Assembly: GCA_028679315.1 (NCBI GenBank) | Contig: JAJRBU010000050.1 | Location: 1 to 35,211 of the forward strand | DNA length: 35,211 nucleotides | Direction: 5' to 3' | From: Methanoregulaceae archaeon | GTDB taxonomy: Archaea; Halobacteriota; Methanomicrobia; Methanomicrobiales; Methanospirillaceae | Shown here: piece after piece, positions 4,764 to 16,914 of the stretch | Numbering within the stretch: position 1 is the stretch's first letter | Layout: the number at the start of each line of letters is the position of its first letter | The notes under the pieces: generated by a model | The model's input: only the letters and a program-made list of their open reading frames with translations | What the model was told of the DNA's origin: nothing | Database searches by the model: none | Translations under genes and position numbers: made by a program

Positions 4764-5222
4764 ATGGCACCGTTTGTCTGCACAAGATGTGGAAAATGTT
4801 GTATGAGCCTGGGGAGACATATCACGATCGAGCGAAGCCTCTCTCACGTGCAGCACTTCTGCCGCGTCGCAGTCACCGGGGAACTACTCCCTGTCTCGAT
4901 CCAGCCAGAGTACCGGGATCCCTACGCTTCAGGAGAGCGGGATCCAACCTGGTGCCCGTTTCTCAGGCGAGCCGATGCAGACTCATTCATCTGCACGATC
5001 TACCAGACCCGGCCCCGGATCTGCCGCGAATTCAGGTGCAGAACGATGCTGATCTATGACCAGAACGGCAATGAAGCCGGCTACGTAAAGGGGAGAAGGA
5101 CCCTTGTTTCAGATGATCCCTGTCTTGCAGACGCCTGGCGGGAGATCCCAGGAGATGCGGATGATGCTACCCTGAAAGAACTACTAAAGAAACATGGCTA
5201 CCGGGCCGAACCGCTTGAGTAG
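4764..5222 (+). CDS. YkgJ-family cysteine cluster protein
   Basis: CTRCGKCC ... WCPFLRRADADSFICTIYQTRPRICREFRC. ATG at 4764 preferred over 4746. Confidence 0.82.
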   Translation: MAPFVCTRCGKCCMSLGRHITIERSLSHVQHFCRVAVTGELLPVSIQPEYRDPYASGERDPTWCPFLRRADADSFICTIYQTRPRICREFRCRTMLIYDQNGNEAGYVKGRRTLVSDDPCLADAWREIPGDADDATLKELLKKHGYRAEPLE

Positions 5223-5297
5223 GGTATGGCATCCCCGGGAATTACCAGGATAATACCCTTATTACTGATGGAAGGCTAACCTTTTTCCCGATTTTCC

Positions 5298-6179
5298 ATG
5301 ACCGAGATCCCCAAAGAGGAGTATGTCCTGAAGTGCACCTCGGCCTGTGCCGGGTGCCCCTCCTCCCTCATTCTCCGGTATGTGCTCAAGGCTGCTGGAC
5401 CTGATACGGTGCTGGTGGTCCCTGCCTGCTGCACCAGCGTTATCCAGGGTATCTACCCCAATACCGCCCTGAATGTCCCGGTATACAATGTGGCGTTTGC
5501 CTCTGCCGCTGCCTGTGCATCCGGAATGACCGAAGCATTCCAGAAAGCCGGGAAGAAGACCAACGTGATCGTGTATGCCGGTGATGGCGGAACCGTCGAT
5601 ATCGGCATCCAGGCTCTCTCCGGAGCGTTCGAACGGGAGACCGATTTTCTCTACATCTGTTATGACAACGAAGCGTACGGCAATACCGGCATGCAGCGAT
5701 CCGGGTCGACGCCGATCGGTGCCCGGACCACCACCACCCCTGGGGGTAAGACCCATGCGAAGAAGGACCTCGATGCCATTGTCGATGCCCACAATCCCTC
5801 CTACCTCGCAACCGCCTGTGCGTCGTATCCGCTGGATCTCTTCAAGAAGGTGCAAAAAGCACTCTCCCTCCGGGGTTCAAAGTTCATCCATGTCCTTGCA
5901 CCCTGCCCACCCGGGTGGCGTTTCTCATCAGAGATGACAGTCGAGATGGGGAAGCTCGCGGTGAAATCCGGCCTGTGGATCCTGTACGAGAGGGAGTTTG
6001 GCAAGGTCACCATCAACGGTCCTTCAAAGGCGGCAATGATCAAACCGGTGCCGCTCGAAGATTACCTGTCAGGTCAGGGCAGGTTCAAGGGGATCGATCA
6101 AAAAGCGATTGATGCGCTGAAGTCCCAGTCAGAACTGCGTGCAAAGCACCTGCAGAAGGAGGCTGATGGGATATGCTGA
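5298..6179 (+). CDS. porB: Pyruvate:ferredoxin oxidoreductase (pyruvate synthase) beta subunit
   Basis: CTSACAGCPSSL, VPACCTSVIQG, AGDGGTVDIGIQALSGAFER, CYDNEAYGNTGMQRSGSTP (TPP binding). Confidence 0.9.
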   Translation: MTEIPKEEYVLKCTSACAGCPSSLILRYVLKAAGPDTVLVVPACCTSVIQGIYPNTALNVPVYNVAFASAAACASGMTEAFQKAGKKTNVIVYAGDGGTVDIGIQALSGAFERETDFLYICYDNEAYGNTGMQRSGSTPIGARTTTTPGGKTHAKKDLDAIVDAHNPSYLATACASYPLDLFKKVQKALSLRGSKFIHVLAPCPPGWRFSSEMTVEMGKLAVKSGLWILYEREFGKVTINGPSKAAMIKPVPLEDYLSGQGRFKGIDQKAIDALKSQSELRAKHLQKEADGIC

Positions 6180-7285
6180 CGATTGCAACCGGGAACAAGG
6201 CGGTCGCGGCAGCGGTAAAGGAGCTCAGCCCCGACGTCATCGCTGCATACCCGATCACCCCCCAGACCGAGATCGTTGAACAGATCGCCGAGTACGTGAC
6301 CTCAAAGGAGCTCGACAGCCGCTATATACCGGTGGAGAGCGAGCACTCCGCGATGGCAGCCTGTATCGGGGCAAGTATCACGGGTGCCCGGACGTTCACA
6401 GCGACTAGTTCACACGGACTTCTCTACATGCACGAGATGGTCAACTGGGCTGCGGGAGCACGGCTCCCCATCGTGATGGCAAACGTGAACCGGGCGCTGG
6501 GTCCCGGCTGGAATGTCTGGGCCGAGCATACCGATGCCTTCCAGGAACGTGATACCGGCTGGCTCCAGGTCTACGTCAGTACCGTCCAGGAGGCATATGA
6601 TACCACCCTCATGGCCTTCAGGATCGCGGAACACGCGGACGTGCTCCTTCCCGTGATGGTCAACCTGGACGGATTCCTCCTCTCGCACTCCATGCAGTCT
6701 CTTGACACCCTGAAACCGGGAGACTTCGTCCCGCCCCTCCACCTCCCCCATGCGATCGATGTTGCGAACCCGGCCGGATACGGGACCCTCACCGGCCCGG
6801 AGGAGCATTTCAAGTTCCGGTGGGAGATCGAGCAGTCGATGAGGAGATCACGGAAGGTCATTGCCGAGACCGAGAAGGACTTCGCCGACAGGTTCGGCAG
6901 GAGCTATAGTGTCGCAGAAGAGTACAGGTTCGAGGATGCCGATGTGGCAGTCATCGCGATGGGAACCCTGGGCAAAGAAGCAGAAGTGGCTGTCGATCTC
7001 CTGCGCAACGAAGGGGTAAAGGCAGGCTCCCTCAGGGTCAGGTGGCTCCGCCCGTTCCCCGATCTCGATCTTGCGGGCCGTGATATCGTGGTCATCGACC
7101 GTGATTACTCATTTGGTTCTGGTGGCATCATCGCCCATTCCCTGATGGCCAGGTCCCGCATCGAACCATACAGCGTGATCGCCGGACTTGGCGGGCAGGA
7201 GGTCACCTATGATGATATCGCCGGATTCGTGCGGGACAGAAGACCCGGTAGTGAGCTCTGGTTTGGGGTGAGCGGCAATGTATGA
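6173..7285 (+). CDS. porA: Pyruvate:ferredoxin oxidoreductase alpha subunit
   Basis: NKAVAAAVKELSPDVIAAYPITPQTEIVEQIAEYV, VESEHSAMAACIGASITGARTFTATSSHGL. Confidence 0.92.
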   Translation: MLTIATGNKAVAAAVKELSPDVIAAYPITPQTEIVEQIAEYVTSKELDSRYIPVESEHSAMAACIGASITGARTFTATSSHGLLYMHEMVNWAAGARLPIVMANVNRALGPGWNVWAEHTDAFQERDTGWLQVYVSTVQEAYDTTLMAFRIAEHADVLLPVMVNLDGFLLSHSMQSLDTLKPGDFVPPLHLPHAIDVANPAGYGTLTGPEEHFKFRWEIEQSMRRSRKVIAETEKDFADRFGRSYSVAEEYRFEDADVAVIAMGTLGKEAEVAVDLLRNEGVKAGSLRVRWLRPFPDLDLAGRDIVVIDRDYSFGSGGIIAHSLMARSRIEPYSVIAGLGGQEVTYDDIAGFVRDRRPGSELWFGVSGNV

Positions 7286-7805
7286 GATACGGATCCACTC
7301 CCGCGGTGGGCAGGGGGGAGTCACTGCCGCCCGGCTCCTTGCCCTTGCAGCCTTCCGGGACGGGAAATATGCAACGGCATGCCCCTTCTACGGTGCTGAG
7401 CGGCGTGGTGCCCCGGTCGTCTCCTATGTCAGGATCGATGACCAGCCTATCCGGATCTACAGCCAGATACGGAACCCGGACCTGGTTGTTGTGCTGGATC
7501 CGAGCGTGATGGAAGTCGTGGATGTCCTCCATGGCCTGAAACAGGGAGGAAAGGTCCTGATCAATGGGACGGATACCGAAAAGATCCACGGAGTCGCGGC
7601 GTGCGCTGTTGATCTTACCGGGATAGCACTCCGGGAAAAGCTGGTCGTTGCAGGCAGCCCGATCCTGAACACCCCCGTACTTGGGGCACTGGCAAAGATG
7701 GGGATAATTACGGTCGATTCGGCGAAAAAGGCGATCAGGGAGATGTTTTCCGATGAACGAAATGTCAGGGCTGCAGAAGCGGCCTTCCGGGAGCTGGTGA
7801 TATGA
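7278..7805 (+). CDS. porG: Pyruvate:ferredoxin oxidoreductase gamma subunit
   Basis: [47 protein letters not shown]. Confidence 0.92.
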
Positions 7806-8047
7806 GCACGCGCCCGGCAATGAGCAGGCCGGTCAAGGGGGCTTCGGGGAAGACCGGGTCCTGGCGGGTATTCAAACCCGTTGTTGATAAAGAAAAATGC
7901 AATGCCTGCGGCATCTGCGGCATGTTCTGCCCTGATGCGGTAATCAGCGATGAACTTGAGGTCGATCTCGATTACTGCAAGGGATGCGGGATCTGTGCAC
8001 AGGAATGCCCGAAGAAAGCGATTACCATGGAACGGGAAGAAAAATAA
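7802..8047 (+). CDS. porD: Pyruvate:ferredoxin oxidoreductase delta subunit, 2x[4Fe-4S] ferredoxin
   Basis: [15 protein letters not shown] and [16 protein letters not shown]; overlaps porG. Confidence 0.92.
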
Positions 8048-8329
8048 TCCCGGTGCTGACTTCACGTTCCTTTTTTCAGGTGTAGGACCGAACCACTCTG
8101 TTGGCTCAATTTGTATGAACTGGTTCTATCTTTTTATGCGAAACGGCTACCTCACCCTCCAGATTCTCTCTCCCGGTCCGGCACGATCTGATACCGAATC
8201 ATAAGCATGCACCTTTCAAAAAAAATCATGATCATATGAGTAAGTGCAGGAAGAAGACCGGTGATTTTTGCCAGATTTCGGGAAACGGTCAAAGATTACT
8301 GAGAATTGGATCGGAATGATAAAAGAGGG

Positions 8330-8698
8330 TCAATCGTCCCCTTCAATTGGACATTTGGCCACGTACTCGAGGTCAAACTTGTAGAAGTGGGTAAATCCGC
8401 AGTTCCTGCACCGTGCGGTGAAGTGGTTGCACCCGATGGCAAGGTCGTGGGGACCAGTGGTCCGGCAGTTCCTGCAGGATGCATCGGATACGATGTTCCA
8501 GAGATCATAGCAGCCGATCCTGGTAAAACTCCCCTCCTTTGTGACCTCCTCCCTCCGCGGGATAAAGATCCGGGTGGCACCACAGTTTTCGCAGATGACC
8601 TGTGACTGGTATGGGACTGCCTTGATGATCTGGTCCGCGTCCTTGTGGCAATGGTAGCAGGTCGTCCGGTACCTGGTGAAGATAAACCGGTCCGTCAT
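8330..8698 (-). CDS. Multi-zinc-ribbon protein of unknown function
   Basis: 122 aa with CYHC, CENC, C..CRNC and CNHFTARCRNC motifs; TATA-like sequence upstream (GCTATAAGAAAG on + near 8719). Confidence 0.65.
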   Translation of the reverse strand: MTDRFIFTRYRTTCYHCHKDADQIIKAVPYQSQVICENCGATRIFIPRREEVTKEGSFTRIGCYDLWNIVSDASCRNCRTTGPHDLAIGCNHFTARCRNCGFTHFYKFDLEYVAKCPIEGDD

Positions 8699-8837
8699 GC
8701 ATGATCATTCCCACGGAGGCTATAAGAAAGTACTCCCCAAGGGAGATCGCCCCAAGAGAAACGGGCGACTTATAGCCCGGTAGCCGTGATTACTTTTAAG
8801 GAACAGGAAAAAATGGTCTAGAAAGTGGATAATGCTC

Positions 8838-8845
8838 TAAAAAAC
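8838..8845 (-). terminator. T-tract terminator downstream of the thermosome gene
   Basis: + strand CTAAAAAACGGG reads CCCGTTTTTTAG on the minus strand just 3' of the stop at 8870. Confidence 0.4.
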
Positions 8846-8869
8846 GGGTGAGTCGAGAAGGGGGAGGGA

Positions 8870-10531
8870 CTAATAGTCTCCCATGCCGCCCATACCGCCC
8901 ATGCCACCCATGCCGCCCATGCCTTCCATACCGCCCGGGGGTCCCTGGGGGGCTGCAGTCTTGGACGCGGCGATGACATCATCGATACGGAGGATCATGA
9001 TGGCTGCTTCAGCAGCACTCGAGATGGCCTGGGTCTTGACACGGAGCGGTTCAACGACGCCTGACTTGAGCATGTCCTCGGCTTTCCCTTCGAATACGTT
9101 CAGGCCAACGGTCTTCTTGCCCTTCTCATGGGCTGCACGGAGCTCAACCAGCATATCAATCGGATCAAGCCCTGCGTTCTCGGCAAGGGTTCGTGGGATG
9201 ATCTCGAGCGCAATGGCAAATGCCTCGATGGCAAGCTGCGCACGACCTCCAACCGTTGCGGCATATTCGCGGAGGCGGAGCGAGAGTTCGATCTCGGGGG
9301 ATCCACCGCCAGCGACGAGTTTCTTGTCCTCAAAGACGACCCCGACCACGCGGAGTGCATCCTCAACGGCACGCTCGATCTCGTCCACCACGTGCTCGGT
9401 CCCGCCACGGACGATGAGCGAGACTGCCTTCGGGTTCTTGCACTCGACAACGAAGATCATCTCCTCACCGGAGACTTTCTTCTCCTCGACAAGCCCTGCG
9501 TACCCGAGCTCATCTTTGGATATGGCGTCGATGCTTGAGACGAGGTTTCCACCGGTTGCGCGGGCGAGCTTCTCCATATCGCTCTTCTTGACGCGCCGTG
9601 TCGCAAAGATGCCTGCCTTGGCGAGGTAGTGCTGGGCGATATCATCGATACCCTTCTGGCAGAAGAGGACGTTTGCACCGGATGCCACGATCTTGTCAAC
9701 GATGTTCTTGATCATCCGCTCCTCTTCATCAAGGAATGCCTGGAGCTGGTCCGGGCTCGTGATGTTGATCTCGGCATCGACCTCGGTCTTCTTGAACTCG
9801 ACTGCGGCATTCAGGAGGAGGATCTTTGCGCCCTTCACCTTCTTTGGCATTGCCGGGTGGACCCGTTCCTTGTCGATGAGGACCCCCTCAACAATCTCGG
9901 AGTCCTCGATGGATCCTCCGACCTTCTTCTCTACCTTGATATTATCCTTGTCGACGGTCCCATCGTCGTCGGCAACCATCATGACGGCCTTTACCACGAG
10001 GTCGCAGAGCTTCTCTTTTGAAGCCTCGGCACCCTTGCCGGTCATGGCGGTCTCTGCGATCTTCTTCAGCATCGCTGCATCGGTTGGCTTGATAGTGATC
10101 GCGATGTTCTTCAGGATCTCCTGTGCCTTCTCAGCGGCCTGCCGGTATCCCTGGGCAATCACGGTCGGGTGCACGTCCTGCTCGAGCAGATCCTCAGCCC
10201 GCTTCAGCAGTTCTCCGGCAATGACGACTGCTGTGGTGGTCCCGTCACCGACTTCATCGTCCTGGGTCTTTGCGATCTCCACCATCATCTTTGCCGCCGG
10301 GTGCTCGATATCCATCTCTTTCAGGATAGTCACCCCGTCATTGGTAATCACGACGTCGCCGATCGTGTCGACAAGCATCTTGTCCATGCCCTTGGGTCCG
10401 AGCGTGGTCCGTACTGCGTTTGCAACGGCCTTTGCGGCGGTGATGTTCATGCCCTGTGCATCACGTCCACGAGTACGTGAACTGCCTTCTTTCAGAATAA
10501 GGATCGGTTGTCCTCCAAGCTGCTGTGCCAT
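8870..10531 (-). CDS. thsA: Thermosome (group II chaperonin) subunit
   Basis: [69 protein letters not shown]-terminal GGM repeats. Confidence 0.97.
8882..8936 (-). repeat. 9-nt tandem repeat encoding the thermosome GGM tail
   Basis: Repeated ccgcccatr(cc) units, translated [21 protein letters not shown]. Confidence 0.85.
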
Positions 10532-10573
10532 AGATATTCACCACTTGTAGCGATAAAATTGGTTTGTGGTTCT

Positions 10574-10582
10574 ATATAAAGT
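10574..10582 (-). promoter_or_regulatory. Thermosome TATA box
   Basis: Minus strand AACTTTATATAGAACC, about 45 nt upstream of the thermosome ATG. Confidence 0.6.
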
Positions 10583-11500
10583 TTATGACTTATCGATCAT
10601 CTCGATCAGCTCTTCACCGTCTGCAAGTGAATGGAGCCGCTCCTCCCCAATCACCAGCGTGCTGCCGATCTTCTTCTGCTTGGTGTAATCGGTCAGCACA
10701 CACATTGCATGGGTACCGGTAACCTGCGAGATGTTCCCGATGAGTGCCGCCCTCCTGACCACTTTGTCAGAGGTACCATACCCAGTAAGAATCGTGTGAT
10801 CGGAAAATTCGATCATGGCCTGGAAGGGTGCCCGGTGCATGGCATGAAGTGTCATGCCTATCCGTTCAAGGAAACTCATCGGAACCTCATCTTTCCCCTG
10901 CTCAGGCTCATCCCTGAAATGCGACTCGTATCTGAGGAGATCGATTGACCGGACCAGGGCTGCATCAAAGATCTCCTCAATCCGGAGAGCGATGTCGAGC
11001 GTAGTCCCCATACCCCCCTCGTACTTGCTGATAGCCCTCCGGGAAACGCCAAGAAGGTTACCAAGGTCACCAAGGGAAAGGTTCCGCTTCTCCCTTTGCT
11101 CCCGGAGCACCTCACCATTGATGTTTACATAGAGTCCGCCGGGAGAGGCATACACAAGGGGCGGATTGTCCTCTACAAAGGCATCATAGAGCGTGGCAAC
11201 ACTGACTGCATAGATCCCGTACCGGACATACACGGCTCCCCGCTCGAGCTCCGCGTCACGGGCTCTCTCACCAATGATCACGGGAGACCCCCGGAGCGAC
11301 CGTGCAATGTGATCGAGGTCACGTGCCGTCTCCTCGCTCACGCTGTCAATATGCGAGACAACCTTGATGACAAGGAGGGTCTCCCTCCGTCCTGCAATTA
11401 GGTCGAAACTCCGCGGCCGCATGGAGAACCGTTCCGTGACCCGGAATCCGGCCATAAGCAGTACTGATATCACCATCTGGAGGAGGCGATCCTGGGACAT
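10583..11500 (-). CDS. Archaeal HTH (XRE/Cro-type) transcriptional regulator with N-terminal nuclease-fold-like domain
   Basis: LREQREKRNLSLGDLGNLLGVSRRAISKYEGGMGTTLDIALRIEEIFD; overall layout of the conserved archaeal putative HTH regulator family. Confidence 0.85.
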   Translation of the reverse strand: MSQDRLLQMVISVLLMAGFRVTERFSMRPRSFDLIAGRRETLLVIKVVSHIDSVSEETARDLDHIARSLRGSPVIIGERARDAELERGAVYVRYGIYAVSVATLYDAFVEDNPPLVYASPGGLYVNINGEVLREQREKRNLSLGDLGNLLGVSRRAISKYEGGMGTTLDIALRIEEIFDAALVRSIDLLRYESHFRDEPEQGKDEVPMSFLERIGMTLHAMHRAPFQAMIEFSDHTILTGYGTSDKVVRRAALIGNISQVTGTHAMCVLTDYTKQKKIGSTLVIGEERLHSLADGEELIEMIDKS

Positions 11501-11550
11501 TTCCGTTACGAATGGATATAGCAGGGCAGGATATTAATAGTAGTGCACAC

Positions 11551-12792
11551 ATGCGAATCGGAATCGATGACACGGATTCGCCGGCAGGGATGTGCACCAC
11601 CTACCTTGGAGCGGTGCTTGCGGACCGGCTCTCCGATTCGGGAATGACCGTTTGTGAGACATTTCTCATCAGGCTGAATCCCAATGTGATCTACAAGACA
11701 AGAGGGAATGCAGCGATATGCCTCGATGTTATTGGTGATGCCAACACGGCTTTTTGCATGGCCTGTGATATTGTCGAAGAGCTGGCAGATTTCTCATGCG
11801 AGGATACCAACCCGGGTGTCGTAGTTTCAGAGGATGCGCTTCCTCCAGCATTCTACCAAAAGGCGGTCAGCGACTTCTGCGAGATCAGCGAGGCAATTGC
11901 ACTGCTCGAGGAATCGGATGCGCTCTTCAGAGGATATAAAAACGGGAGGGGCCTGATTGGGGCTGTGGCGGCAGTCTCCAGCTTCCTGGAAGACAAAACC
12001 TCTGAGATTCTGACCTATCGCAGGCCTGAATGCTTGGGATCACCAAGGATCGTCGACCGTAAAAGCCTGTTTCTCGCTGAACAGGAGACATATCCTCACA
12101 CCTGGGACACTGTAGACAGAAGGAACGATATCGTTGTCTGTGTCCCCCATACTCCGGACCCGGTTCTCTATGGGATCAGAGGGGTATCGGGGGAATGGGT
12201 GCTCCGGGCACGAATGATGGTGGTATCAGAGGATCCTGAAAGAGAACATATCTTTACCACAAACCAGGGTACCGATGCTCACATGGTGGCGGGATCTCCA
12301 GGTGCTCTGGAACCAGGGAGATCTTACTTTGTCAGGGGAAGGGTCTCCACGGCCCCTGTCACCAGGAACGGCGGGCACGTCTCGTTCCTGCTTTCTGATA
12401 CCCGATCTTCTGTCAGGTGTATGGCATACGAGCCGACAAAAGGATTCCGTGATATCATACGATTGCTCTGTCCAGGGGACGAGGTAGTGGTTGCAGGGAG
12501 TTTCAAAGGTGGCAGCATCAACCTTGAGAAGATAGGGGTGATCTCCATTGTTTCCCGGACAGAACGGAAGGCACCACTCTGCGTCTCCTGCGGCAGGAGG
12601 ATGACCAGTGCCGGGAAGGGCCAAGGATACAAGTGCAGGACCTGCGGTGCGCGGGAACAGGAACCGGATCTGGTATGCATCACGAGGGAGCTGAAACCAG
12701 GGTGGTACGAGGTTCCCCCTTCTGCCCGGCGACACCTGGCAAAACCGCTCTGCAGGGGGAATCCGGACCTCGAAAAGTACGGGACTGGATAA
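11551..12792 (+). CDS. tiaS: tRNA(Ile2) 2-agmatinylcytidine synthetase
   Basis: MRIGIDDTDSPAGMCTTYLGAVLADRL; C-terminal OB-fold and zinc ribbon CVSCGRRMTS...YKCRTCG. Internal ATG at 11551 preferred over 11512. Confidence 0.88.
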   Translation: MRIGIDDTDSPAGMCTTYLGAVLADRLSDSGMTVCETFLIRLNPNVIYKTRGNAAICLDVIGDANTAFCMACDIVEELADFSCEDTNPGVVVSEDALPPAFYQKAVSDFCEISEAIALLEESDALFRGYKNGRGLIGAVAAVSSFLEDKTSEILTYRRPECLGSPRIVDRKSLFLAEQETYPHTWDTVDRRNDIVVCVPHTPDPVLYGIRGVSGEWVLRARMMVVSEDPEREHIFTTNQGTDAHMVAGSPGALEPGRSYFVRGRVSTAPVTRNGGHVSFLLSDTRSSVRCMAYEPTKGFRDIIRLLCPGDEVVVAGSFKGGSINLEKIGVISIVSRTERKAPLCVSCGRRMTSAGKGQGYKCRTCGAREQEPDLVCITRELKPGWYEVPPSARRHLAKPLCRGNPDLEKYGTG

Positions 12793-15700
12793 TCAGAGGG
12801 GCTGTTCTGTTCCTGAAGTGGCCGTCTCTACTATCCGGATCTCATACGGTGTTAACCGATAGAGATCATAGACCAGAAGATCTATCTTGTGATCTCTATC
12901 CCTGATTTGCTGCCAATATACCGCCTTTTTCACCGGATCTTCCGTTTCATTCACCATCTGGTGGAGAGCAAGCATCTGCCGGACCATCACTTCGACTGAA
13001 TCATGCCGGATGGCATCTTCCCGGTCCTCGAAGTCAGGGACATAGACAGGAATATTTTCAAAAAGAGGGCCGTACAATCTCCGGTAATCCCCCCGGAAAG
13101 GCGGCAGGGTCTGACTAATGAAAAACCACATTAATCGGGAGTTAAGAATCCCGAGAAGATAGAGAGAGGAGGATAGGATTAGCCCGCATGTATGAGGGCA
13201 GTAATGACCACCACAATCCAGGGTAAACCTTCTTTCTCTCGCAATTCCGGGAAACATTATTTTAGGCCTGGCAAATAGGTCAGAATACCTGTCTTTGCAA
13301 GGGAACCCGGATTGGGAATTTGCATCCGGCATTGTTCGTTTGTATGTCCCTGTCCCGCTTTTCTTTCGAATTGCCACTCCTGAATGGTTCCTGAGATGAC
13401 GAAACACTGCGGGATATTCCGCATCAGCACTTTCCTGAGCAGTGATGATTAGGTAGCATTGTGGGGATGGAGGAAGGTAGCGTTTCAGTCCTCCGGGGGT
13501 AACGAACGGCCTGAAGATCGCTGCTGATCCTGGATCTTCTGCAATCAACCGCTTCATAGTCACTCCATCAATGAGCCGGGGAGAATTGATTCCAATCCTG
13601 ATTCCATGGTACAGTGCACCCATCACATACTCGGCAAGCGACGTTCCTGCATTCTGAATCTTCCCGATAAGGTCCTGTGCGCTGGTATCCGCGAGAATCC
13701 AGATTTCCTCCCCGATCCGGCATCGCGGAACGCTGTACCTATTTTTCTCAAGGAAATGCGAAAAGTGCTCAGTATCCGGGAATATTCCCCGGACTACCGA
13801 TAAAGAGGGGCTTGGTTCCCCCTTTACCACCGTTACTATACAGGTACGCGGGATAGTGGGACTCCCCGTTTCCTGGTAGGCGAGATCAATAATCTCCTGT
13901 ATTCCGGATTGACTCAGGAACAGACGAAGCTTTGATCCATGCCTCGCACGCAGCCATGTATTGGGAAATATGGCGGATAAAATCCCTCCCTGCCTCAAAA
14001 GTGAAATTCCTCGCTCAACAAAACAGGGATAAAGTTCTCCCGTTAGAGGAAAGCAGAAGTAATGCTTCGCAAGATACTCGGTCTCTCCCTTGAGTGATTC
14101 ACGCTGATACGCGGGAAAACTTCCGATCACCCCATCAAATCCTCCCGGACTTATGATGTGGGGAAATGCGTCTTCCCAGGCAAACACTCTCATTCGTTCC
14201 CGGGAACCGGGGTCGATAAGCGACGTATCAGGATCGTCCAGAAAATCAGGGCTTACAATTGAATTCCCGCACCGGATACAGGATGAGAGATCCGGGCCCG
14301 GTAGCCCCTCCCTCCCACTCTCTTCCATCATCGTGACAAGGAGAAGGATCTTTGTCGTGTCGACCGCATTCCTGTCGATGTCAACACCGGACAAGGTGGA
14401 TAGGAGGATCCTCCTTCTCTCTGCAGGAGTCAGTCTCCATCTCTCTTGTTCTCCGGATGTATCTCCATAACTCCCCTGAGAGATGGGGAGAGGGAGTATT
14501 CTGTCCCCGTTCACGCTCTCCATCTGCCCAGGGAGGAGGGACAGGATATCATCGTCAGAGCAATCGCCTCGCTGCAGGACTGGGAGGAGGTTCCTGAAAT
14601 ACCAGTCCCGATGCCATTCGAGCAGAAACTCGTATGCCATGATCAGGAACAAGCCGGATCCACAGGCGGGATCAAGTACATGGAGGGTTTGGATCTCTTG
14701 CGGGGTCCTTTCCTTTACGAGCTCGGAGAGGGTCCTTCCCACAACATATTCTGCAATCTGATCAGGAATAGGATAAGGCCACACGGATTTTCCTTGGTCA
14801 GGACGTTCCTCCACGACGGCCTGGTGCCCGTTGGTGATTCGGATCACACTCTCAAGATAAAAGGAGAAGACCCGGGCAAGTACCCGTGCCGGGATGACAG
14901 CAAACTCATAAGGGCTCTGCCTTGATGTCAAGCCGGCAATAATAGTCTTGATCGCATCATCATCGACAGAAAGGGTGAAAATCAGGGGATCCGTGGGTTC
15001 TGGCCTTCCCGCACGTTCCGAGAAACAAAAGAGACCTCCTCCATATTCTTCCTCAGCGTACCGGAAAAGTCCGCAAAGCCTTCCATACGCTGATCCCCCT
15101 TCGGTGACCCTCATGAGCACCCCTTCCTGCCCGAGGTTCCTTGCTTCCATGATACGGAGAAAGAGGATCCGGGCAAGGATGTAATGCACCACGTCGTGGA
15201 GGGAGTCCTCAGCCAGCCCGTGGTTGTGGAGGGCAATCCTTTTCGCAAGCAGCACCCGCCACGCTTCCAGATCCTTCCGTAGCACCTGCCCAATCCGTGA
15301 TTCCTCCTTGATCCCTTGTTTTTTGAGGAAAAGCCCGATCGAACCCTGTGCTATACATTCACGGGAGAGGACAGCAGCAATCCGGTCCCAGTGCTCAGCA
15401 TATCGGTCAACAGGGATTGTGGTAATCAATGCTCTCTCCACGTCTTCCCTGCACTGTACCGGGGTGGTGGTGTCATATACGGCCGATTCACCGAATGTTG
15501 TGAGGATAGCGAGGTCAAGCCCGGCATTCCATGCATACCTCAAAAGGAGATAGGCGCTCTCCCAGCAGAGAGGGCGATCGGTGACCATGATCGGGAGAAC
15601 GCAACCCTCACGCGTACAAAGGATGTAATCGATGTATCCGGCCTTGCCGCTGATTCGCACCGGTACATCGATCATCAGGCCGCTTTGTCCGAGGCCGTTT

Positions 15701-15843
15701 CCGGTTCGTCTCTTCTTCCAGCCAAGGCACTCCAGGAAGGGATCGATGAATTCCCTGCAGAGAGTCTCCCTGCCCATGTCCCCTTTGAAGGCAGAGGCCT
15801 GATAGCGCTCGATGATTCCGGTGATTGCTGGTGACACTGGCAT
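12793..15843 (-). CDS. Type IIG-like restriction-modification fusion protein (Eco57I/TaqI_C-like) with apparently degenerate catalytic motifs
   Basis: 1016 aa; DPACGSGLFLIMAYEFLLEWH (motif I); motif IV position reads FDGVIGSFPAYQR; nuclease position IDYIL...VLPIMVTDRP; C-terminal LYLLGILNSRLMWFFI...LFENIPVYVP specificity-domain-like. Confidence 0.8.
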   Translation of the reverse strand: MPVSPAITGIIERYQASAFKGDMGRETLCREFIDPFLECLGWKKRRTGNGLGQSGLMIDVPVRISGKAGYIDYILCTREGCVLPIMVTDRPLCWESAYLLLRYAWNAGLDLAILTTFGESAVYDTTTPVQCREDVERALITTIPVDRYAEHWDRIAAVLSRECIAQGSIGLFLKKQGIKEESRIGQVLRKDLEAWRVLLAKRIALHNHGLAEDSLHDVVHYILARILFLRIMEARNLGQEGVLMRVTEGGSAYGRLCGLFRYAEEEYGGGLFCFSERAGRPEPTDPLIFTLSVDDDAIKTIIAGLTSRQSPYEFAVIPARVLARVFSFYLESVIRITNGHQAVVEERPDQGKSVWPYPIPDQIAEYVVGRTLSELVKERTPQEIQTLHVLDPACGSGLFLIMAYEFLLEWHRDWYFRNLLPVLQRGDCSDDDILSLLPGQMESVNGDRILPLPISQGSYGDTSGEQERWRLTPAERRRILLSTLSGVDIDRNAVDTTKILLLVTMMEESGREGLPGPDLSSCIRCGNSIVSPDFLDDPDTSLIDPGSRERMRVFAWEDAFPHIISPGGFDGVIGSFPAYQRESLKGETEYLAKHYFCFPLTGELYPCFVERGISLLRQGGILSAIFPNTWLRARHGSKLRLFLSQSGIQEIIDLAYQETGSPTIPRTCIVTVVKGEPSPSLSVVRGIFPDTEHFSHFLEKNRYSVPRCRIGEEIWILADTSAQDLIGKIQNAGTSLAEYVMGALYHGIRIGINSPRLIDGVTMKRLIAEDPGSAAIFRPFVTPGGLKRYLPPSPQCYLIITAQESADAEYPAVFRHLRNHSGVAIRKKSGTGTYKRTMPDANSQSGFPCKDRYSDLFARPKIMFPGIARERRFTLDCGGHYCPHTCGLILSSSLYLLGILNSRLMWFFISQTLPPFRGDYRRLYGPLFENIPVYVPDFEDREDAIRHDSVEVMVRQMLALHQMVNETEDPVKKAVYWQQIRDRDHKIDLLVYDLYRLTPYEIRIVETATSGTEQPL

Positions 15844-15984: not shown

Positions 15985-16914
15985 ATGGAATGCGGGGATC
16001 CCGTGGAGCAGATATCACTAAAGCCTCGTATGAGCGTCAACGAGCTGATGTGCGAGCTCGCACGGGCCGGAGCGTACAATGGTGGTGCGCTTGCCAGGGC
16101 TGCTGACATCTATGAACAGATGCTCACCGATGAAAAAACTGTGAAGTTCTTCGGACTTGCAGGAGCGATGGTCCCTGCCGGGATGGGTGGGATAGTAAGC
16201 GATCTCCTCTCGCGCGGCTATATCGATCTCCTGGTCAGTACCGGGGCCAATCTCACCCACGACATCATCGAAGCACTTGGATGCCGGCATTATCATGGCT
16301 CTGCGTTCTGTTCAGACATCGATCTTCGGCAGGAAGAGATCAACCGTATTTACGATGTCTTCCTCCCAAATGAGGCCTTTTTAACCTTTGAAACCTTCAT
16401 GCAGGAATCCCTTTGCGCACTCGATCCCGGACGAAGTTATCCCATTACCGAGCTTCTGACCGTCCTTGGGCAGCGGCTCGACCGGGGAATCCTCTCCATC
16501 GCTGCGGAGAATGGGATACCAGTGTACTGCCCGGCGGTAGCTGATTCGATGATAGGGCTCCAGTGCTGGTTGTACTCCCAGTCGGGAAAAATCTCCGTTG
16601 ATGCTTTCTCTGATATGAAAGGCCTGATCGATCGTTGTTTTACGGCCGAGAGTGCCGGGGCACTTCTTGTTGGGGGCGGGGTTCCGAAGAACTTCATCCT
16701 TCAGAGCATGCTGATGACCCCACAGGGATTTACCTATGCTGTCCAGCTCACCGGGGACCGGCCGGATCTTGGGGGGCTATCAGGTGCAACCCTCGAAGAG
16801 GCGCGATCATGGGGGAAAATTACTGAGGATGCACGTGCGGTGACTGTCTATGGGGATGCGACTATCACCCTGCCAATGCTGGTTGCGGCAGTGCTGGAGC
16901 GGATAGCGCAATGA
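15985..16914 (+). CDS. dys: Deoxyhypusine synthase
   Basis: KFFGLAGAMVPAGMGGIVSDLL, GANLTHDIIEALG, VGGGVPKNFI, SWGKI (active-site Lys context), ATITLPMLVAAVLE. Confidence 0.9.
   Translation: MECGDPVEQISLKPRMSVNELMCELARAGAYNGGALARAADIYEQMLTDEKTVKFFGLAGAMVPAGMGGIVSDLLSRGYIDLLVSTGANLTHDIIEALGCRHYHGSAFCSDIDLRQEEINRIYDVFLPNEAFLTFETFMQESLCALDPGRSYPITELLTVLGQRLDRGILSIAAENGIPVYCPAVADSMIGLQCWLYSQSGKISVDAFSDMKGLIDRCFTAESAGALLVGGGVPKNFILQSMLMTPQGFTYAVQLTGDRPDLGGLSGATLEEARSWGKITEDARAVTVYGDATITLPMLVAAVLERIAQ

Follow-up and report, generated by a model that had tools for sequence, protein, structure and literature searches.

A candidate domesticated pseudoenzyme of type IIG restriction-modification ancestry at a housekeeping locus in Methanoregulaceae

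Introduction

Restriction enzymes are usually viewed as short-lived, shuffled, selfish or defensive. A gene in the window, by which we mean the whole 35,211-nt stretch analysed here (contig JAJRBU010000050.1 of a Methanoregulaceae archaeon), raises the question of why a protein built like a type IIG restriction-modification enzyme would be kept when both of its active sites appear to be gone. The original prediction, made from the sequence, described an intact type IIG-like frame that had lost catalysis and was retained for a non-catalytic role rather than decaying. Here, the domains and motifs of the protein, its locus, its orthologues and the selection on its frame are described, and the possible roles of the gene are weighed.

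Results

A type IIG-like protein without either catalytic centre

The gene is a single open frame of 1016 codons plus a stop, as had been predicted, and it is encoded on the minus strand, which the prediction had left unsaid (Table 1). Its assignment as a type IIG-like restriction-modification protein is borne out by profile matches to REase_MTase_IIG in PADLOC (E=4e-94) and to Eco57I in Pfam (1.2e-22), and the proposed C-terminal specificity-like region is recognized as a TaqI_C specificity domain (3.2e-7, residues 854-933). An Eco57I-type gamma-class methyltransferase domain and a C-terminal recognition domain are thus joined in one chain, and the SAM-binding motif I (DPACGSG) is present where it had been claimed. 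The other two defining features of type IIG enzymes are missing: SFPA stands at the position of catalytic motif IV ([DNS]PP[YFW]), and D72 alone remains of the PD-(D/E)XK nuclease active site. Because these two features were tested and failed, the protein is classed, from its sequence, as a pseudoenzyme of type IIG ancestry and not as a type IIG enzyme.

Motif IV aligns without a gap with that of close active homologues (GNPPYVRQE against GSFPAYQRE), and NPPY has become SFPA through N>S, P>F and Y>A, with one Pro kept. The loss of NPPY and the change of Asn to Ser were therefore predicted correctly, while the Phe insertion also proposed there is ruled out by the gapless alignment, the real further changes being P>F and Y>A. 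In the nuclease domain, the Asp of IDY (D72) is retained and E and K are the only missing residues; the absence of the ExK pair holds, since no [EDQ]xK occurs within residues 1-180. No [DNS]PP[YFW] was found along the whole protein, and the search suggested earlier for a functional motif elsewhere in the chain came out empty.

An AlphaFold2 model built from 15 sequences (mean pLDDT 77, pTM 0.67) matched the DNA adenine methyltransferase CamA, BpuSI, BrxX, M.BseCI and MmeI in the PDB, with global TM-scores that are low (0.2-0.4) because of the domain arrangement. The predicted structure supports the fold assignment, not the details of the active sites.

Table 1. Features of the type IIG-like gene and its two neighbours (positions in the window)
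Feature	Position	Strand	Remarks
TiaS (tRNA-Ile2 agmatinylcytidine synthase) homologue	11512..12792	+	convergent; stops abut; Pfam TiaS_FLD 1.2e-37
Catalytically dead type IIG-like protein	12793..15843	-	1016 aa, frame intact
C-terminal helical tail, ~residues 940-1012	12808..13026	-	predicted long helices 941-966, 970-994, 999-1012
Target-recognition (TaqI_C-like) region, ~residues 661-935	13039..13863	-	Pfam TaqI_C; approximate alignment-based limits
Catalytic motif IV position GSFPAYQR, residues 574-581	14101..14124	-	NPPY gone
Motif III RCGNSI, residues 524-529	14257..14274	-	kept
Motif II GVDIDRNAV, residues 486-494	14362..14388	-	kept
SAM motif I DPACGSGLF, residues 391-399	14647..14673	-	kept
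Degenerate N-terminal PD-(D/E)XK-type nuclease domain, ~residues 1-180	15304..15843	-	alignment with active homologues; D72 kept, ExK gone
Former nuclease active site IDYILC...PIMVTDRP, residues 71-91	15571..15633	-	active homologues: IDYSF..FICEAKKP
Deoxyhypusine synthase (DHS) homologue	15985..16914	+	divergent from dead gene; Pfam DS 1.4e-96

One chromosomal locus in the genus

The gene is flanked by housekeeping genes, with a thermosome gene, an HTH protein gene and tiaS on one side and those of DHS, OMP decarboxylase and others on the opposite side. Among 101 related genomes searched, orthologues occur in seven genomes of the genus, at 53-67% identity in six of them (G000, G003, G005, G006, G009 and G011) and as a more diverged copy in G004. 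TiaS and/or DHS stands beside the orthologue in the six genomes in which the flank lies on the contig (G000, G003, G004, G005, G006 and G009); further orthologues sit at this locus on a second-strain contig of G000 and in G011, whose copy is beside DHS. The order TiaS, dead gene, DHS is found where the contig spans both flanks (L002, L032 and L031), and the remaining orthologue contigs stop within the dead gene or shortly past it. Four other near-complete genomes of the genus (L114-L117) have TiaS and DHS directly adjacent and lack the dead gene, which is thus not essential in the family. A close active homologue was sought in G003, G000 and G011 and found in none of the three; G003, which is 98% complete, holds the dead copy only. 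With the window protein as query, no related loci were found in the wider genome-contig collection; an alignment of the dead clade contained no stretch sufficiently conserved to serve as a query, and further related loci were gathered by scanning genome contigs with the neighbouring DHS gene.

The assembly of the window contains a second locus of the TiaS-DHS type (L038, G000:C28:1-3250). Its N-terminal part is 45% identical, ~65 residues are identical to a G006 contig, and it probably stems from another strain or species that shares the bin.

Shared loss of catalytic residues and retention of SAM motifs

Where motif IV was recovered from orthologues of the genus, it reads SFPA in four copies and HPPH, HLPG, HLPR or EPPH in the others. 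Neither the catalytic Asn (0/8) nor the Tyr (0/8) is present, with S, H or E standing in place of the Asn and A, H, G or R in place of the Tyr, and the first Pro is also gone in most copies. The nuclease ExK is absent in every copy that covers the segment. It had been proposed to check whether orthologues carry canonical motifs; none does where motif IV was recovered, and such motifs appear only in remoter, paralogue-like homologues of 34-39% identity. The catalytic residues are thus absent across the orthologues, as in a pseudoenzyme. Since orthologues at 55-64% identity share the losses and still have open frames, the losses are more than chance and are not private decay.

The SAM motifs present another picture. 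Residues typical of the active family (shared by at least 90% of 30 homologues) are kept by the clade at a background rate of 61% in the methyltransferase core, and the rate rises to 86% for motif I, 88% for motif II and 95% for motif III. To judge by these residues, catalysis is lost and the SAM pocket is retained in the clade of the window protein, and SAM binding by the protein is plausible because motifs I-III remain.

Selection on the reading frame

For pairs within the clade, NG86 dN/dS is 0.23-0.41, compared with 0.12-0.16 for TiaS, 0.08-0.12 for DHS and 0.10-0.31 for active homologues. As the values are two to three times those of the neighbours, the constraint on the dead gene is estimated to be moderate. 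Between the window gene and L002 (dS 0.97), an unselected frame should have gathered ~118 nonsense changes and none is seen; the orthologues of the genus contain no in-frame stops. All 48 contig-complete dead homologues have a single open frame, while 2 of the 29 contig-complete active-type genes are split. Both frame and sequence are thus under purifying selection, and the seven genomes, the 48/48 open frames and the dN/dS of 0.23-0.41 lend good support to the earlier claim that the protein is retained for a non-catalytic role and is not decaying.

Relatives in Methanoregula and beyond

Dead relatives of ~800 aa, which have no nuclease domain, are common in Methanoregula (genus g5) and also occur in g12. 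Their motif IV reads APPP, APPA, SPPP, NPPE, NPPD, NPPA, NLPD or CPPE, and the fourth residue is never aromatic. Several of these relatives lie inside the TiaS-DHS interval (L059, L078, L084, L086, L089 and L094) and others beside one flank. The same interval holds an active homologue with NPPY and ExK in Methanoregula fen_60 (L135 = L200), and another active homologue lies near DHS in L126; dead and active homologues occur together in many Methanoregula genomes. The interval is variable in Methanoregula (L059, L078, L082, L086 and L094), where it also contains MFS transporters, PIN/AbrB-type pairs and other genes, a variability that the genus of the window does not share.

In a tree calculated with motif IV removed, one branch parts the dead rows from the active ones (SH-aLRT 97). 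A scan of viral contigs yielded three active-type relatives only, and with these as the outgroup the dead rows form one clade (SH-aLRT 98), the sole stray "dead" row being a fragment without the motif. The tree favours one common origin for the whole dead set (SH-aLRT 92-98). It contains long branches, and the AU test does not reject separate origins (p 0.07 and 0.17). Very divergent homologues, one per genome, in other genera (L058, L060-L064, L066-L070 and L100-L104) are assigned tentatively, Pfam recognizing just part of this set.

Two observations concern the 3' ends of these genes. In the dead Methanoregula homologues L079, L088, L092 and L093, the last ~110 residues, which form the C-terminal helical tail, match active homologues at up to 69-73% identity, a much closer match than over the remainder of those proteins; the identity suggests extra constraint or gene conversion. 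Active type IIG genes are followed downstream by repeated copies of their own 3' tail in L218 (G218:C109:6000-23000, at 5128-12496) and also in L219, L220, L221, L222 and L205, the copies in L218 being ~200 bp long and 82-89% identical. Single toxin-antitoxin or nuclease modules lie between the tail copies (HicA, MqsA, HEPN/nucleotidyltransferase, RhuM, DUF1016/YhcG and NERD), as if modules had been added one after another behind the restriction gene.

A recognition domain that follows the core

In active homologues, divergence is much greater in the recognition domain than in the core, the pattern that domain shuffling would produce, while the recognition domain of dead homologues tracks the core. 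Gaps of more than 15 points between core and recognition-domain identity are seen in 8 of 11 sister pairs of active homologues and in 1 of 18 dead pairs, with medians of 22 and 2.7 (Mann-Whitney p=0.02, the dead pairs not being fully independent). The dead pair L078/L110, whose recognition domains differ, is an exception. In another dead homologue, L137 (7259-9754), identity to the active-type L126 is 73% over the recognition domain and 43% over the core; by these identities, the domain was taken over from an active-type enzyme. Because of these two cases, the freeze in specificity is not absolute.

Discussion

Comparison with known systems

The window protein shares with type IIG enzymes (BpuSI, MmeI, DrdV; PADLOC REase_MTase_IIG) the order of nuclease, helical linker, Eco57I-type methyltransferase, TaqI_C-like recognition domain and helical tail, and its fold matches theirs; it differs in lacking ExK and NPPY, in its unshuffled recognition domain and in its housekeeping locus. 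Over the methyltransferase and recognition domains, the best structural and sequence matches are the orphan or solitary adenine methyltransferases CamA, M.TaqI and M.BseCI, which are active enzymes with motif IV intact. The BREX methyltransferase BrxX/PglX also matches in profile and fold searches. Membership in PglX/BrxX is ruled out by a score of 48.8 bits against an NCBIfam cut-off of 500; no BREX genes were found in the window regions scanned, where the neighbours are housekeeping genes. A precedent for inactivity is DndH, in which inactive methyltransferase and recognition domains beside a REase have been read as a recognition unit (PMC10853773). DndH is likewise a type IIG-like unit with a lost methyltransferase motif, thought to serve recognition, but its SAM loop is eroded too, its nuclease is kept and it belongs to a large ATPase defence protein (PMC10853773), whereas the window protein keeps the SAM motifs and stands alone.

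What the gene may do

The reading that we prefer, to which we give a probability of roughly 55%, is that the window gene encodes a domesticated pseudoenzyme of type IIG origin, which has kept its fold, SAM motifs and locus under selection and would bind DNA at a fixed sequence, probably together with SAM or SAH. By its sequence, the protein has lost both catalytic centres of a type IIG restriction-modification enzyme while keeping the fold and the SAM-binding motifs, and the gene is inherited at one chromosomal locus within the genus under purifying selection. Its recognition domain is not exchanged as that of active relatives is and may bind one fixed DNA sequence, with SAM (or SAH) as a probable ligand. 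The product would act on the chromosome as a sequence-specific DNA-binding protein, such as a regulator, a roadblock or a reader of SAM or methylation state, and would neither cut nor methylate.

The strongest competitor, though we consider it unlikely, is that the dead protein is an accessory or decoy in defence, which binds foreign or host target sites or partners an active restriction enzyme and so modulates defence non-catalytically. Descent from a restriction enzyme, the coexistence of dead and active homologues in many Methanoregula genomes and the inactive methyltransferase-recognition-nuclease unit within the defence protein DndH (PMC10853773) all speak for such a role. The window gene, however, lies among housekeeping genes and in no defence island. 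The specificity domain does not diversify and three genomes lack a close active homologue, which makes a decoy role, or pairing with an active enzyme, less likely in the genus of the window; such a role may still apply to Methanoregula, where both kinds often coexist. Slow decay of a restriction-enzyme remnant would agree with a dN/dS above that of the neighbours and with the Methanoregula relatives that lack the entire nuclease domain; it is made improbable by the consistently open frames of the dead homologues, set against two split active-type genes, by the dN/dS range itself and by SAM motifs kept above background. Least probable of all is an active methyltransferase with an unusual motif IV. 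Motifs I-III are retained, and Ser may stand for Asn in some amino-methyltransferases ([DNS]PP[YFW]), which counts for this possibility, but the Asn and Tyr positions both vary within the genus, the first Pro is mostly gone and the protein offers no alternative motif.

Meaning for the family

In the open-access papers searched, and in the keyword-matched parts of an archaeal survey (PMC10609329), no description of the dead family or of such a fate of stand-alone restriction enzymes was found. Annotations and defence surveys based on profiles only would overcount restriction systems, the window protein itself being scored as type IIG by PADLOC. We propose tentatively that Methanoregulaceae may have domesticated a type IIG enzyme into a chromosomal DNA-binding protein of fixed specificity that reads SAM or methylation state. 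If true, the family would be a natural experiment in the conversion of a defence enzyme into a housekeeping DNA-binding protein, one that has given up both activities while its fold, SAM pocket and locus are kept and its recognition domain stays frozen.
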